Source: a virus. From it: a stretch of DNA of 23,077 nt. A program made the position numbers and the translations under genes. Below are positions 17,760 to 22,466 of the stretch, in pieces (position 1 is the first letter of the stretch; the number at the start of each line of letters is the position of its first letter). The notes below the pieces were generated by a model, which ran no database searches, had not been told where the DNA came from, and worked only from the letters and a program-made list of their open reading frames with translations. The stretch is taken from the IMG/VR virus record IMGVR_UViG_3300006752_000246, positions 1-23,077 of that record; one strand, 5' to 3'.

Positions 17760-19403
17760 TTATGCGCTCATTGCTGATTTATTACGTTCGCCCTTAAGTA
17801 ATCCAGGGAGCCGGTCTCTCCAGCTTGGGACGTGTTCAATCTTCTCTACGAAGGTGCTGAACTCGGTCATCATCAGACCGATCCAAGCCAAGGCATCTAC
17901 TTGGTCGTCGTGGACCCCATTCGGGAAGCGCAGAAGTTCTGCGACTAATGGCCCAGTAAATTCCTCATCTTTGGGCAGGAAGACCATGCCCTGTTGCATC
18001 CGGCCTTGGATTGCTCTGGCGCGTGCCTCCTTGTCCCTGCGGCCAGTTTTCAAATCTTTGAAATACGCCTCGTAGAGCCCACGCTCACGGACGCGCTTTT
18101 CTAAGAACGGTCCGAGAGCCATCTCGATGTGTCCTTTCTCAATCCCGATGATCGACGGCTTCCACGACTCGTACAGATCGAGGATCTGCTCAACCAGTTC
18201 AAAGCCGTCAAACCGTCCGCGCACCATGTCCATCACAAACATCTGGTCGTACTCGTCGACGCCTACAACGATTCCAACGGTGTAGTCATTTCTGTCGTTC
18301 TTACCGATCGCCAAGTCCCACGCGCAGTAGTAACGCATGCGATCCTCGTCGACCTCGTCGCGGTCGTAGTACTGGATCATGTCTCTAGTGAAGTAGTCGC
18401 CGTCATCTGCGACGGGGTTCTGCTGATACAGCGCTGACCAGTCTCTGGGCCCGACAGCTTTTTCGATCCGCGCGAGCGCGTCCTCGTCGTAACGCTCGCG
18501 GTGTAGGGCTTCACCTTGCTGCCGAAACTCCTCGTCCACCTCGGCTCTAGCTGGGTAGTTCACAACTTCCCACTGCTCACCGTTATCTGCGGCAGCTTTA
18601 AGCAGACGACCCGCCAAATCGTCGTCATGCCAGCGCGTCAAAATTACCAGCACGCCGCCGCCTGGCGCGAGACGTGTATACGCGGTGGAGGTGTACCAGT
18701 CCCAGGCGCTGTCGCGCGCGTTTTGTGATTCCGCGTCGTCTCGGTTCTTTACCGGATCGTCAATAACGAGGATGTGAGCACCCTTACCAGTGATACCGCC
18801 GCCCACACCGGCAGCAACGTAGCCACCACCAACAGTAGTAAGCCACGCTTCAGCAGACTGAGACTGAGGGTCGAGGCGGGTCTTGAAGGCAGACTTATAT
18901 CCCTCTTCGCGAAGGAGACCACGAACCTTGCGGCTGAAACCCATTGCGAGTGAACCCGAGTAAGAACAACTAATAAACTCATGCTCAGGATGTCGCCCAA
19001 GGTGCCAAGCTGGGAATCCAACCGATGCAAGCGTGCTCTTACCGTGCCGTGGTGGCATGAAGAGCATGAGTCGAGGCGACTTCTTCGCTGCAACATCTCG
19101 GGAAAACTCCTCTAATCGTTTACATATGTCCTTATGTACCCAACCGGCTTGATAATCGGGGTTAAACCGCTCCACGAACGGCAACAACTTCCGGCGGGTC
19201 AGGAACCGCAGTGCGAGTTCCGCGCGCGCCTTCTCTTCGACAGTTGATTCCTGCTCGACCTCCGGTTCGGGGCTGGCGGGCTGCGGTTCTTGCTCCGCGA
19301 TATCAGATTTGCAGTACACGCAGAGACGGTCGTCTCCCGAGTACAAAGTCTCGGGGTGAGACGCTTTGCAGCGTACGCATTCGATCTTTATGACATCTGT
19401 CAT
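17760..19403 (-). CDS. terL: Terminase large subunit with N-terminal zinc ribbon (547 aa)
   Basis: The packaging motor and nuclease. ATPase: Walker A PPRHGKS at ~117-123, Walker B ILVIDD at ~211-216, and a coupling motif LVILTRWHDDD at ~252-262. Nuclease: AWDLAIG (Asp363), IGIEKG (Glu422) and HDDQVDAL (Asp499-503 region), the RNase H-like acidic cluster. Unusually, residues 9-31 form a Cys4 zinc-ribbon-like motif (CVRC...CVYC: C9, C12, C28, C31) followed by an acidic Pro/Glu linker (~35-60) before the motor. The start at 19403 is chosen because its ATG overlaps the TerS stop (TGATG); a TTG one codon upstream is an alternative. It should form a holoterminase with the upstream small subunit. 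Confidence 0.92.
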   Translation of the reverse strand: MTDVIKIECVRCKASHPETLYSGDDRLCVYCKSDIAEQEPQPASPEPEVEQESTVEEKARAELALRFLTRRKLLPFVERFNPDYQAGWVHKDICKRLEEFSRDVAAKKSPRLMLFMPPRHGKSTLASVGFPAWHLGRHPEHEFISCSYSGSLAMGFSRKVRGLLREEGYKSAFKTRLDPQSQSAEAWLTTVGGGYVAAGVGGGITGKGAHILVIDDPVKNRDDAESQNARDSAWDWYTSTAYTRLAPGGGVLVILTRWHDDDLAGRLLKAAADNGEQWEVVNYPARAEVDEEFRQQGEALHRERYDEDALARIEKAVGPRDWSALYQQNPVADDGDYFTRDMIQYYDRDEVDEDRMRYYCAWDLAIGKNDRNDYTVGIVVGVDEYDQMFVMDMVRGRFDGFELVEQILDLYESWKPSIIGIEKGHIEMALGPFLEKRVRERGLYEAYFKDLKTGRRDKEARARAIQGRMQQGMVFLPKDEEFTGPLVAELLRFPNGVHDDQVDALAWIGLMMTEFSTFVEKIEHVPSWRDRLPGLLKGERNKSAMSA

Positions 19404-19936
19404 CAATCGCTCTTAGGTTCGAGGTAGTCCAGATCCTTACCTGCAATCTTCAACAAGTCCTCGTCACTCATGCGTTCAAGCTGCTTTGTACCGTTGATGT
19501 TGATGTTCACTTGGGTAGCGTTTTCCGGCGCGGCCAAACCGTGCAGCTTAACCAGGGAATCGGTGGTGTTTTTCATCTCAGTGGCGTTTGCCGAGGAGTT
19601 GTACGCCTCCATGTACATCATGTGCGCGTGCTGATTGGTAAACTTCACTTCTTCGCGCATTTCTTGGCGAAAATACTCGATGGCTTGTGCCACAGAGGGC
19701 CGTTTTGCGGCTTCGTAGGTTGCTTGGGGCGAAGAGTATCCAGCGCCGCGACCTGCGGCCGCGATCGTCATTCCTGAACTGATAAGCGAGACCAGCTTTT
19801 CCTGCTGCATGGTCAGTGAACCGCGTGTCAGGCCCATGTAGGGCAGATGCGATTGAAACTCCGTATGTTCGCTCACTAAGTCAGTGGACTGTGACTCCGA
19901 TTGGGGTGCCTGTTCCATGAAACTCTGGTTCTTCAT
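19403..19936 (-). CDS. terS: Terminase small subunit (177 aa)
   Basis: After a Ser/Gln/Glu-rich N-terminus (~1-40), residues ~42-90 form a helix-turn-helix-like unit (QQEKLVSLISSGMTIAAAGR, GAGYSSPQATYEAAKRPSVA, then a helix). This is typical of small terminases that recognise pac or cos DNA. A helical oligomerisation region with several Met follows, and a C-terminal tail that probably contacts TerL. The ATG at 19936 has no clear ribosome-binding site and overlaps the 88-aa gene by 56 nt. The ATG at 19918 (overlap 38 nt, weak AGAG site) is a reasonable alternative. It is followed by TerL with a TGATG overlap. Confidence 0.75.
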   Translation of the reverse strand: MKNQSFMEQAPQSESQSTDLVSEHTEFQSHLPYMGLTRGSLTMQQEKLVSLISSGMTIAAAGRGAGYSSPQATYEAAKRPSVAQAIEYFRQEMREEVKFTNQHAHMMYMEAYNSSANATEMKNTTDSLVKLHGLAAPENATQVNININGTKQLERMSDEDLLKIAGKDLDYLEPKSD

Positions 19937-20172: not shown

Positions 20173-20643
20173 TTAATCACAAGTGAAATCACCGATGGTC
20201 TTGATCCACCAAAAGAACATATCTTCAGGCAAATTGTGCTTCATTATGTTGACTCGGTAACAAACCAGCTGCGTATTTGCAGCGGTGTAGCCAACGTCTT
20301 GTGAAATCCTGTCGATTGACGCGTTGTTGTCTTTCACACCGGAGCCGTCGACGTGATGCGTCAGATATACACCGGACAGCGCGCAGCGTCCTCCTTGCTC
20401 CGTCCACTTTTCCACTAAATCTTCATACGTTATGTGCCAATCGCGGTTCGCGGCTCGGGGGTCGCGTTTGTTGGAGTTCTTGGATTTTGAATAGAGGTTC
20501 CGCAAGTACGATTTGTAGCTCGCGGATATACGTTTTTGGGCTGCGACCGTGCGACACGCCTGGCACTGAACTCGGTTGCGTTCAAATTCCTTTTTTGGCT
20601 TTGTGGAACCGCAGCCTGAACATACGAGAGTGGTTGCTGGCAT
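20173..20643 (-). CDS. HNH-like endonuclease with N-terminal zinc ribbon
   Basis: A 156-aa protein. Residues 8-30 hold CSGC...CQAC, a Cys4 zinc ribbon. Residues ~65-156 match small phage HNH-type nucleases: a helix EDLVEKWTEQGGRCALSGVY, then HH, NNASIDRISQDVGYTAANTQ and LVCYRVNIMKHNL, where the Asn-Ala-Ser-Ile-Asp-Arg core, the Gly-Tyr-Thr turn and Asn-x-x-Met-Lys are characteristic. HNH proteins beside terminase genes assist genome cutting in some phages (HK97-type); others are homing enzymes. The position directly before the TerS/TerL group supports the first, but homing cannot be excluded. The ATG at 20643 has no ribosome-binding site and lies 9 nt from palindromic element D. Confidence 0.7.
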   Translation of the reverse strand: MPATTLVCSGCGSTKPKKEFERNRVQCQACRTVAAQKRISASYKSYLRNLYSKSKNSNKRDPRAANRDWHITYEDLVEKWTEQGGRCALSGVYLTHHVDGSGVKDNNASIDRISQDVGYTAANTQLVCYRVNIMKHNLPEDMFFWWIKTIGDFTCD

Positions 20644-20652
20644 AACGTATGA

Positions 20653-20671
20653 ATATTAGCGTCACTATTAT
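20653..20671 (-). promoter_or_regulatory. Palindromic element copy D upstream of the HNH gene
   Basis: ATATTAG-cgtca-CTATTAT, one mismatch between arms. The spacer again begins with C and ends with A. On the minus strand TAATAT lies 9 nt before the HNH ATG, but I see no -35-like hexamer at 17 bp. Confidence 0.55.
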
Positions 20672-20811
20672 TACGGACCGGAGCATACACGCTTAACTGC
20701 ATGTTTCTGCAAAAATTTTCAAAAAATTTTTTTTCATTTTTACGTCTGTATCGCTCACGGACTATCTCCCCCCTTGGCCCATCGCGCCCCCCGTACCCCG
20801 ATCCGCAGTGT

Positions 20812-20848
20812 TGGAACCTTGTCACGTATACATCTGTGGAACCTTGTC
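20812..20848 (+). repeat. Direct repeat TGGAACCTTGTC, two copies
   Basis: Exact 12-bp copies at 20812-20823 and 20837-20848, starting 25 bp apart. They lie upstream of the plus-strand gene cluster. Likely a paired protein-binding site. Confidence 0.6.
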
Positions 20849-20896
20849 GGAAAAACGCCTCGCTCCTAGCGTCGCTCGTCGTCGGTGTCGTTATGA

Positions 20897-20919
20897 ATTG
20901 GATGAATGGTTCGTCCAAT
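20897..20919 (+). promoter_or_regulatory. 10-bp stem hairpin in the leader of the 111-aa gene
   Basis: ATTGGATGAA and TTCGTCCAAT pair over ten positions (one becomes a G-U wobble in RNA) around the loop TGG. It ends 7 nt before the AAGGAG ribosome-binding site. It could regulate translation or form a hairpin in DNA; no T-tract follows, so it is not a terminator. Confidence 0.55.
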
Positions 20920-20938
20920 CACAATCAAGGAGACAGAG

Positions 20939-21274
20939 ATGTCACAGTCGAACAACGTTATCGGTAACCCAGTACAGCTTTCCCTCGGCAAGAGCAAAGG
21001 CAGTGCAACAATCTACGCTCAGCTAAAGAACGGCAGCGTGTGGGCACTGAACGCCCCGTCACGTAGAGACGCTAATCAGTGGATCAAGTTCATCAACGCA
21101 CAAGGCGCGCTGCTACTCAACGGGTGGAAGCGAGTACGGGCCGCGCCCCAAGCACCACGACCCGCGAAGCCCCTGCGCGCTCAACTGGCACCGACCAAAG
21201 CTGCACTGCTGATCCAGCAGAAACGCGCTGAGCAGGCCGCCGCTTACAAAGCCGCTAAGCAAGGAGAAGTGTAA
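20939..21274 (+). CDS. 111-aa basic protein of unknown function
   Basis: The start chosen is 20939 because AAGGAG at 20927-20932 lies six bases before this ATG; an upstream in-frame start at 20906 lies inside the hairpin. The N-terminal half looks like a small beta-rich fold (VQLSLGKSKGSATIYAQLKN, then GSVWALNAPS) followed by an amphipathic helix (RDANQWIKFINAQGALLL). The C-terminal 45 residues are Ala/Arg/Lys/Pro-rich and probably disordered or DNA-binding. No family is recognised. First gene of the rightward cluster, with a stop overlapping the next start (TAATG). Confidence 0.65.
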   Translation: MSQSNNVIGNPVQLSLGKSKGSATIYAQLKNGSVWALNAPSRRDANQWIKFINAQGALLLNGWKRVRAAPQAPRPAKPLRAQLAPTKAALLIQQKRAEQAAAYKAAKQGEV

Positions 21275-21462
21275 TGACCACGTCAGACATGTTCGAACAA
21301 CACTTCGCCCGTACGCCGCTCGCTCGCCAGGAGGCTCGCGATCCGCGATCCGCGCCCCAGCGGGCAGCAATCCGTAAGGCCTATCGTCGCTATCTACGTA
21401 TGGGGTTCGATCCCCGAGAAGCGTCGTTCAAGGCCTATCACTATCACACCTCTAAACTGTAA
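21274..21462 (+). CDS. 62-aa basic protein of unknown function
   Basis: Short, Arg/Ala-rich and probably two helices. The central part APQRAAIRKAYRRYLRMGFD followed by PREASFKAYHYHT is amphipathic and basic. It is preceded by an excellent AAGGAG site and coupled to the previous gene through a TAATG overlap, which supports its being real. No family is recognised. Nucleic-acid binding is possible from charge alone. Confidence 0.6.
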   Translation: MTTSDMFEQHFARTPLARQEARDPRSAPQRAAIRKAYRRYLRMGFDPREASFKAYHYHTSKL

Positions 21463-21474
21463 CGGAGAAAACCC

Positions 21475-21660
21475 ATGAAACTATTCTACACCCCAGTAGA
21501 ACGCATGCTCCTGAGCATCGACGACTGCCACGACGTAACCGACAACGAGTACCTCCGAGATGCCTGTTGGAAGATCTTCGACAAGTACTTTGGCAGAACA
21601 AAACTCTCGGTTCGTGAAGCACGGATCTTGGATCACGCTCGCGGTCTGTTGCAGATTTAG
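21475..21660 (+). CDS. 61-aa protein of unknown function
   Basis: A small, mostly helical, mildly acidic protein (MKLFYTPVERMLLSIDDC, then YLRDACWKIFDKYF and LSVREARILDHARGLL). A CGGAG site lies eight bases before the ATG, 12 nt after the previous gene. No family is recognised. It ends directly at the repeat array, whose first copy begins 2 nt after the stop. Confidence 0.55.
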   Translation: MKLFYTPVERMLLSIDDCHDVTDNEYLRDACWKIFDKYFGRTKLSVREARILDHARGLLQI

Positions 21661-22029
21661 GTGTGTAGCAGCTTTGAAGTGTGTAGCAGGTGTGTAGCAG
21701 CTAATTTTCCGTTTCTGCTACACAAAGTTTTCCTTTGTATTCAACCACTTAGGTCTAAACACCCTATGTGTAGCATGTGTAGCAGCTTTTTTGACTTGTT
21801 CAGATCGTTTTTCAAAAACACCGTTTTTTTTTCTAAATCGAACTTCAACTCAAATTTACCTGCTACACATGCTACACACTGCTACATCATTGTTTTCATT
21901 ACATTTTGTGTGTTTTGAACCTGCTACCAAAGCTGCTACCAACCTGCTACACACCCCCTGTTCCTGCTACACACTGACCGCGAACCACGAATCACGGTCA
22001 TTAATGACTACCATCAATTGGAGGGCCAT
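21661..22029. repeat. Iteron-like array: 13 copies of TGTGTAGCAG, candidate origin or operator array
   Basis: A 369-nt gene-free region. Forward copies of TGTGTAGCAG (or its first 9 bases) start at 21662, 21680, 21691, 21767 and 21776. Reverse copies (CTGCTACACA and close variants) start at 21715, 21860, 21870 (TGCTACACA), 21879 (CTGCTACA), 21921 and 21933 (CTGCTACCA), 21944 and 21964. Forward copies cluster on the left and reverse copies on the right. Between them lies an A/T-rich core of about 70 nt (21787-21858) with GTTTTTcAAAAAC (21807-21819) and a T9 run (21824-21832). The copies at 21691 and 21715 could form a 10-bp hairpin. The layout (iterons plus an easily melted core) resembles replication origins that bind an initiator protein; a regulatory array is the alternative. 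Spacing is irregular and orientation mixed, so it is not a CRISPR. Confidence 0.7.
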
Positions 22030-22209
22030 ATGGCTACTTTCTTCGCTATTTTCTTCGCTTTTTTCTGCGGAGTCCTACTTATCACGACCGCTGCACTCAT
22101 CATCACGGGTGTCATGTTCGTGGTCAACGAGAACTACCGCAACGCAATGTTCCACCTGTTCAGCACTGTCACCGATGACGCTGAACCACACCAACCGGAG
22201 GTTCACTGA
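22030..22209 (+). CDS. 59-aa single-pass membrane protein
   Basis: The start chosen is 22030: GGAGG precedes it with five bases between, while the in-frame ATG at 22018 overlaps that site. Residues ~3-38 are hydrophobic (ATFFAIFFAFFCGVLLITTA, then LIITGVMFVV), giving one long or two closely spaced membrane segments with a short polar C-terminus containing Asn, His and Asp. Small membrane proteins in phage accessory cassettes can affect host envelope or exclusion, but no function can be named. The TGATG overlap with the next gene supports co-translation. Confidence 0.6.
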   Translation: MATFFAIFFAFFCGVLLITTAALIITGVMFVVNENYRNAMFHLFSTVTDDAEPHQPEVH

Positions 22210-22466
22210 TGAACACTGACTTTGTAGACAGGCTGCTCACACTTGTAGCGTTAGCAAGCGTTGGTTTAGACCACAACAGACCAGACGTTGTCCGACAACA
22301 AATAGACGGTATGCGTGAGTTACTCATACCCGAATTAAACAAACTCGAACTCGAAGAAGCGCAGTTGTGGTGGCGAAAACAACAAGAGTTCAACTCCGGA
22401 AAAGAGTTGGTGCGATTGGTACAACAGGAGATTGGCAATGACTCGTCTGATCGTAGCTGGGACTAG
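22209..22466 (+). CDS. 85-aa acidic helical protein of unknown function
   Basis: Mostly alpha-helical in composition: an N-terminal helix NTDFVDRLLTLVALASVGLD, then a charged coiled-coil-like section with IPELNKLELEEAQLWWRKQQ. A CGGAGG site lies seven bases before the ATG, and the start overlaps the previous stop (TGATG). The last 29 nt overlap the SLOG-family gene in another frame. No family is recognised. Confidence 0.6.
   Translation: MNTDFVDRLLTLVALASVGLDHNRPDVVRQQIDGMRELLIPELNKLELEEAQLWWRKQQEFNSGKELVRLVQQEIGNDSSDRSWD

Follow-up and report, generated by a model that had tools for sequence, protein, structure and literature searches.

A two-armed array of short repeats, constant in geometry and variable in sequence among phages, as a probable replication origin

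The rise of a new specificity is seldom visible in initiator–origin pairs, because most of them evolve at too slow a pace or are altered too thoroughly. The alpha protein of P4 unites a primase, an SF3 helicase and a C-terminal winged helix, and reads decamer iterons beside an A/T region. In PICI/SaPI elements, the origin has an A/T-rich region with a set of short iterons on either side, and the element encodes a primase–helicase (PMC6092414, PMC7581432); the describers of this origin plan knew of no other bacterial replicon sharing it (PMC6092414). The C-terminal domains of SaPI Rep and Cch2 bind the origin iterons, and Cch2 of SCCmec, a D5-type helicase, is reported to bind short direct repeats with this domain in isolation (PMC7581432). 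For the PLE of Vibrio cholerae, co-variation of the RepA DNA-binding domain with the origin is described, as is an origin that can escape an origin-directed nuclease (PMC8263062). Other accounts describe the helicase region of NrS-1 as hexameric, with a likely but unproven helicase activity (PMC9611036), and marine satellites with a DUF5906 primase (PMC10803314). No paper on the origins of the phage group considered here was found in the open-access literature.

The window, the whole 23,077-base viral record analysed here, carries its late genes (terminase, portal, capsid) leftward and small genes rightward. The late genes include the terminase large subunit gene (TerL; 17760–19406, minus strand), which was the anchor for finding relatives, and a TerS-like gene (19403–19936, minus strand), named from its position and sequence. 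The original prediction, made from the letters alone, was of a gene-free, thirteen-copy array with opposing arms around an A/T-rich core. Thirteen copies of TGTGTAGCAG with 0–2 mismatches (eight exact, two with one mismatch and three with two) were found at 21662–21973, as delimited by a unit scan and by homologous arrays; five are forward and mostly on the left, and eight are reverse and mostly on the right, with one reverse copy (21715) sitting in the left arm. The array lies in the gap between a 61-aa ORF (21475–21660, plus strand), whose end directly abuts it, and a 63-aa ORF on its 3' side (22018–22209, plus strand; start at 22018, TTG, or 22030, ATG), and the absence of genes was thus borne out as well. 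The exact 10-mer occurs eight times in the whole record, always inside the array, and 0 times read backwards; weak extra matches to TGTGTAGCAG at 21645 and 21110 are outside the grid of sites. The commonest 7-mer, present on both strands, reached 11 copies within 350 bp, compared with a maximum of three (78 shuffles) or four (22 shuffles) among 100 two-base-block shuffles of the window, indicating that the array is not a product of chance.

In the left arm, three exact outer sites on the plus strand (21662–21671, 21680–21689 and 21691–21700) lie 114, 96 and 85 bp from the innermost site, followed by a flipped site on the minus strand (21715–21724) at 61 bp, which has a counterpart at ~60–66 bp in most relatives. 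A plus-strand sequence similar to the IHF consensus, ATTCAACCACTTA (21739–21751), then precedes the inner tandem site (21767–21775, plus strand), 9 bp from the exact innermost site (21776–21785, plus strand). The A/T-rich core (21786–21859), the proposed melting region between the arms, measures 74 nt between the innermost sites rather than the 70 nt given originally, and contains the palindrome GTTTTTCAAAAAC (21807–21819) and the T9 run (21824–21832) that had been pointed out in it. The right arm, entirely on the minus strand, comprises the exact innermost site (21860–21869), an inner tandem site at 9 bp (21869–21878, one mismatch), a third inner site at 19 bp (21879–21888, two mismatches), and outer sites at 61 bp (21921–21930, two mismatches), 73 bp (21933–21942, two mismatches), 84 bp (21944–21953, exact) and 104 bp (21964–21973, exact). 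Degenerate GTGGTTCGTGATTCGCGGTTC-like repeats were noticed by eye at 21980–22005 and beside many other arrays, on one or both sides. Searches for RNA families and tRNAs found none, a comparison of the window's array with the phage collection gave no match, and a genome scan for a host found none.

The terminase search yielded at least 80 loci. Among the terminase matches listed, the unit of the window itself forms an array in a few relatives only; a k-mer scan without a preset unit revealed that many relatives have an array in the corresponding position, each with its own unit. Among the matches listed with at least 2.6 kb of upstream sequence, 24 of 29 carried an array, called when at least seven sites were present, at 1.6–3.7 kb upstream of terL; three of these carriers (L009, L010 and L061) belong to the window's own lineage. 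Two further loci (L081 and L082) had a partial array at a contig end, and no array was recognised in the remaining three (L039, L044 and L047). The expectation that relatives would hold the array at the same locus was thereby upheld, with near-fixed geometry, and the search for the exact 10-mer that had been suggested would have been misleading on its own, as most relatives have another unit on the same grid. Helicase-anchored searches brought in further arrays from more distant phages, and each of the six long contigs checked contained one array. Counted by eye, there are ~15 kinds of unit, including TGTGTAGCAG, TTTGTAGCAG, TCTGTGCAGG, TGTGTACAG, TTCGTGCCAC, TGTGTGACGG, TGTGTGTCAG, TCTGTGCACG, TGTGTACGC, TGTGTACCA, TGTGTGCCA, GGTGAGAC, TTTGTGCACC and others, and the general pattern is a near-constant TGT with ~4 variable bases. 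The unit is specific to the lineage and 9–10 bp long, and its copies form a grid that is roughly mirror-symmetric about the core.

The geometry was compared in 36 arrays brought into a single orientation, with site patterns tuned per phage by eye and the palindromic units of L043 and L165 counted on both strands; the set includes close relatives such as L017/L035 and L064/L067. Relative to this common orientation, the arms are swapped on the plus strand of the window, whose right arm corresponds to the left arm there. Of the 36 arrays, 30 had their inner tandem sites spaced at exactly 9 bp in the left arm, and 30 had this spacing in the right arm. The core had a median length of 76.5 nt (quartiles 75–78; 35 arrays within 71–87 nt, and that of phage KPP25 at 111 nt) and a median A+T content of 0.73. 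The number of sites per array had a median of 12; there were six sites in the left arm of 26 arrays and in the right arm of 17, and exactly six in each arm in 12 of 36. The outer sites of the left arm cluster at 62, 74, 85 and 105 bp from the innermost site, corresponding to ~6, 7, 8 and 10 helical turns, and those of the right arm at 85, 95 and 105 bp, with the flipped site mostly at 60–66 bp. At 10.5 bp per turn, in 32 of the 36 arrays (L043, L165, L194 and KPP25 left out), outer sites were in phase with the innermost site in the left arm (R = 0.74, 125 sites) and in the right arm (R = 0.57, 74 sites). Because the phages share ancestry, a p value for this phasing has no meaning, yet the same grid is occupied by clearly different units. 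Among relatives, the positions of the sites are thus kept while the letters of the unit have changed. By eye, a second common element, approximately AAAGTCAGCAA...GGGTTGTAGAG, was seen in the left-arm gap of L018, L032, L064 and others, and was not seen in the window's lineage.

The consensus used for scoring IHF sites was WATCAANNNNTTR, from which the site of the window differs by one mismatch. Of 38 arrays, 23 contained a perfect consensus sequence, whereas 30 dinucleotide shuffles yielded 0.9 such arrays on average and never more than three; in the same scan, no IHF-like site was found in the array of L075. In the 32 arrays used for the phase analysis, whose innermost sites are clear, a copy with at most one mismatch was always present 20–60 bp outside the innermost right-arm site, and was perfect in 20, whereas 60 rounds of shuffled gaps gave on average 3.5 arrays with such a copy and at most eight, and on average 0.1 arrays with a perfect one and at most two. 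In KPP25, the only near match, with one mismatch, lies elsewhere in the region.

A cultured group is also involved. The Pseudomonas phages KPP25 (Kochitakasuvirus), phiR18, CRPAP1904 and YMC17/07/R4900a encode an SF3 protein with 31% identity and share an unannotated, gene-free gap of 676–677 bp that is conserved at 96.7–100%. In KPP25 (NC_024123, 26219–26894), pairs of TGT[TC]ACGA, 8 and 9 bp apart, flank an A/T core. This array differs from those of the window type in having a longer core, of 111 nt when measured in the same way, and additional repeats within the gap. Portions of this gap are found again at five to six places in the genomes of this group, and AACCCGCGTGGCACTAAGGCTCCAGC is repeated inside it. 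In Aeromonas phage phiA008, no array was seen in the gap inspected, nor by a 7-mer scan of the record.

Like the PICI/SaPI origins, the 36 arrays and that of the window (21662–21973) consist of two iteron sets around an A/T-rich region. In contrast to them, the array lies ~6–13 kb from the helicase gene, upstream of it in the linked contigs, whereas the PICI origin lies directly 3' of rep or pri-rep; its carriers are contigs of 44–61 kb with terminase, portal and capsid genes rather than satellites; and it has a phased grid of ~12 sites, an IHF-like site and turnover of the unit at constant geometry. The array is thus predicted to work like a PICI-type origin and yet is not PICI, because its position and its carrier differ. 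If so, the PICI-like origin plan would extend to full-size phages, including the cultured KPP25 group. Compared with P4 alpha and its ori, the protein plan appears to be alike, whereas the unit and layout appear to differ. Cch2 differs in having three iterons of 5 nt and a putative origin that adjoins the gene (PMC7581432), and PLE in having a RepA_N-type initiator and three semi-palindromic iterons of ~30 bp (PMC8263062).

The candidate reader of the array is a PrimPol–SF3 protein, encoded in all eight long array contigs found through terminase (G001, G002, G003, G008, G009, G010, G014 and G016). Profile searches matched it to DUF5906 (PF19263, 4e-20) and VapE-like proteins (1e-6) and, among PDB profiles, to the NrS-1 primase (6k9c/6k9e, 3e-34). 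Its C-terminal region was modelled by AlphaFold as a winged helix (pLDDT 81.7, pTM 0.62). In VIA-align, the best match of this model was the hexameric NrS-1 helicase region (93–97 residues, rmsd 3.2–3.5 Å), at a Z of 7.6, which is below the 8 taken as the level for more than a common arrangement; winged-helix domains including ORC/Cdc6 came next at Z 3–4, and Foldseek alone gave a weak match (E 0.087). The protein thus fits a DUF5906 helicase core followed by a C-terminal winged helix, the latter as predicted by the model. In G001, the SF3 gene is split over three ORFs (L090 10887–13411, which is G001 30887–33411), compared with one ORF in relatives, reflecting either an assembly error or true frameshifts.

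In 37 sequences from close relatives, no other 12-residue window of the SF3 protein is as variable as the predicted wing (residues 797–808), with an identity of 0.37 against a mean of 0.84. Among ten early proteins, of which SF3 is the longest, this wing deviates most strongly from the average of the protein that contains it (z −4.05, a divergence 4.05 times the mean); a VRR-NUC-like protein has a window of lower absolute identity (0.125), being variable throughout (mean 0.605, n = 9). Eight early genes of G010, SF3 among them, were matched in 19 of 19 array contigs, a count that for SF3 holds by construction because most contigs came from the SF3 search; the eight terminase-found contigs are the ones independent of it. 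The other seven genes appear to encode PolA-like, SNF2-like helicase, Cas4-like, VRR-NUC-like, gp34-like (by PF23977) and CsrA-like proteins and one protein of no assigned kind. The CsrA-like gene (64 aa; e.g. L105 10693–10887) adjoins the SF3 gene in G001, G008, G009 and G010.

Considering these results, we propose that the array is very probably a replication origin, whatever protein reads it, and that it is probably read by the phage's own primase–helicase, as suggested by the conserved array, the gene content and the predicted fold. The C-terminal winged helix of each SF3 subunit would read one unit, and two helicase hexamers would assemble, one per arm. An IHF-induced bend may bring in the helically phased outer sites, while the inner tandem pairs would lie at the edges of the core, which would melt; the helicase would be loaded there, and its own primase would start synthesis. 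In evolution, initiator and iterons would change specificity together, with the array homogenised after each change. The original prediction had left the choice among an origin, a partition-like centromere and a multi-site operator; the origin is now favoured of the three, with conservation speaking for it and skew not supportive in the closest relatives.

A turning point of skew at the array had been expected for an origin, and this part was not confirmed: in the closest relatives, GC skew keeps one sign throughout the array, with no sign change in G001, G003 or G010 (computed, with KPP25, for six contigs in all), and is not supportive there as proof of an origin. The turning point of keto skew, a maximum, lies 0.9–2.6 kb from the array, near the divergence of transcription. 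In G016, the minimum of detrended skew is 256 bp from the array. These skew readings are confounded by the direction of transcription. No clear excess of contig ends piling up at the array was found.

It is unlikely, though the best placed of the alternatives, that the array is an origin recognised sequence-specifically by a different protein, of the phage or of the host, with SF3 only recruited. The co-variation data bear on this point. For 19 linked pairs including KPP25 (L249 dropped for its cut C-terminus; unit consensus hand-aligned on TGT), the distance between units correlated with that of the winged helix in SF3 (Mantel r 0.27, p 0.003) and equally with that of the remaining SF3 sequence (r 0.28, p 0.001), and the correlation with the winged helix was not significant when controlled for this remainder (partial Mantel r 0.07, p 0.19, n = 19). 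None of three sets (the 19 pairs; without KPP25; without KPP25, L168 and L182) gave a significant partial correlation, and in L118 and G003 the units differ although the recognition helices are almost the same. The lack of significant co-variation beyond phylogeny is in keeping with another binder, as is a fast-evolving early protein that many of these phages encode close to the array; coupling of unit and SF3 is plausible but unproven. Against another binder, the seven other early proteins matched in all 19 contigs, which were chosen through SF3, include no sequence-specific DNA reader as far as their sequences indicate; L018 and L032 have the same unit, yet by eye their proteins near the array are strongly different, so that this protein is disfavoured as partner; and a conserved host protein would not explain a different unit in each phage. 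The fast-evolving protein has ~190–295 aa, usually a CW.AR motif, and a position ~0.4–1.8 kb from the array (e.g. L016 2119–2868, L018 3445–4227, L060 4067–4663 and L213 1074–1712); the two members searched had no Pfam match at E 0.1. Post hoc residue patterns seen by eye in SF3, such as an R before the conserved G with an A at unit position 9, are recorded with no claim attached.

A recruited SF3 set aside, reading by the phage's own primase–helicase has also to be weighed against functions other than replication. The dispersed stoperators of mycobacteriophages are an example of a multi-site repressor operator. That the array is such an operator of a phage repressor is very unlikely, even though its unit is asymmetric, it lies inside the rightward set of small genes, and an HTH_3 protein is encoded near the integrase in close relatives. 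The HTH repressor was unmatched in five of 19 array contigs, four of them partial and the fifth the 56-kb G016; the unit is confined to one array, isolated single matches aside; and region 20500–22300 contains one promoter-like site against a shuffle mean of 1.4. Furthermore, an operator does not require a fixed grid, an A/T core or an IHF site.

Multi-site pac elements exist, and the array is 1.6–3.7 kb from terL in the relatives among the matches listed, as could be the case for a pac- or cos-like packaging site at which TerS, encoded ~2 kb away, binds the unit and starts packaging. The identity of TerS (99.3%) and TerL (99.8%) between L032 and L086, however, is accompanied by different units, TGTGTGACGG and TCTGTGC[GA]C, respectively; L013 and L014 likewise have different units without a TerS difference in the aligned part. 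The distance between TerS proteins was unrelated to that between units (Mantel r −0.055, p 0.74, n = 26; 26 of 28 kept, L009 and L061 being dropped as near-copies of the window). TerS is thus excluded as the specificity partner, the array does not qualify as a pac/cos site, and a packaging function is highly improbable.

Equally hard to credit is a partition centromere or an attP with integrase arm sites and IHF, given that, although arrays and IHF sites occur at attP sites and close relatives encode a tyrosine integrase (PF00589), the integrase gene of G001 is ~18 kb from the array and so not adjacent to it, no match to the integrase was found in six of the 19 array contigs (mostly partial ones), and KPP25 has a similar array without an annotated integrase.

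With reading by the phage's own primase–helicase retained as the preferred explanation, a wider interpretation may be offered as a tentative possibility. In a widespread, mostly uncultivated phage family, the PICI-like origin may have become a geometry-locked, sequence-free platform, with sites for two initiator hexamers and an IHF bend in full-size genomes, on which the recognition code switches through the hypervariable wing of the helicase. Conflict over the use of the origin, involving co-infecting phages, origin-stealing satellites or origin-directed nucleases, might drive the switching, and the origin type might then define a replication immunity group. Many natural phages, at least one cultured group among them, have retained almost every site of a single architecture, whereas the presumed initiator has changed in its wing and the unit in its variable bases. 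This opens three questions to direct tests: by which code the origin is recognised, how many initiator subunits take part, and why the unit turns over. These phages may document, as found in nature, how an initiator and its binding sites could evolve jointly.

Two observations concern the turnover of the unit itself. In L051, L064, L067 and L087, the arms differ largely by one base (TGTGTGCCA versus TGTGTGTCA), as if each arm had been homogenised on its own. Between L032 (131–3350) and L086 (692–3186), a block of ~3 kb containing the array differs, whereas the terminase side is 98.6% identical and 130 bp beyond the block are again 99% identical; judged from this alignment, the block appears to be a recent module exchange.
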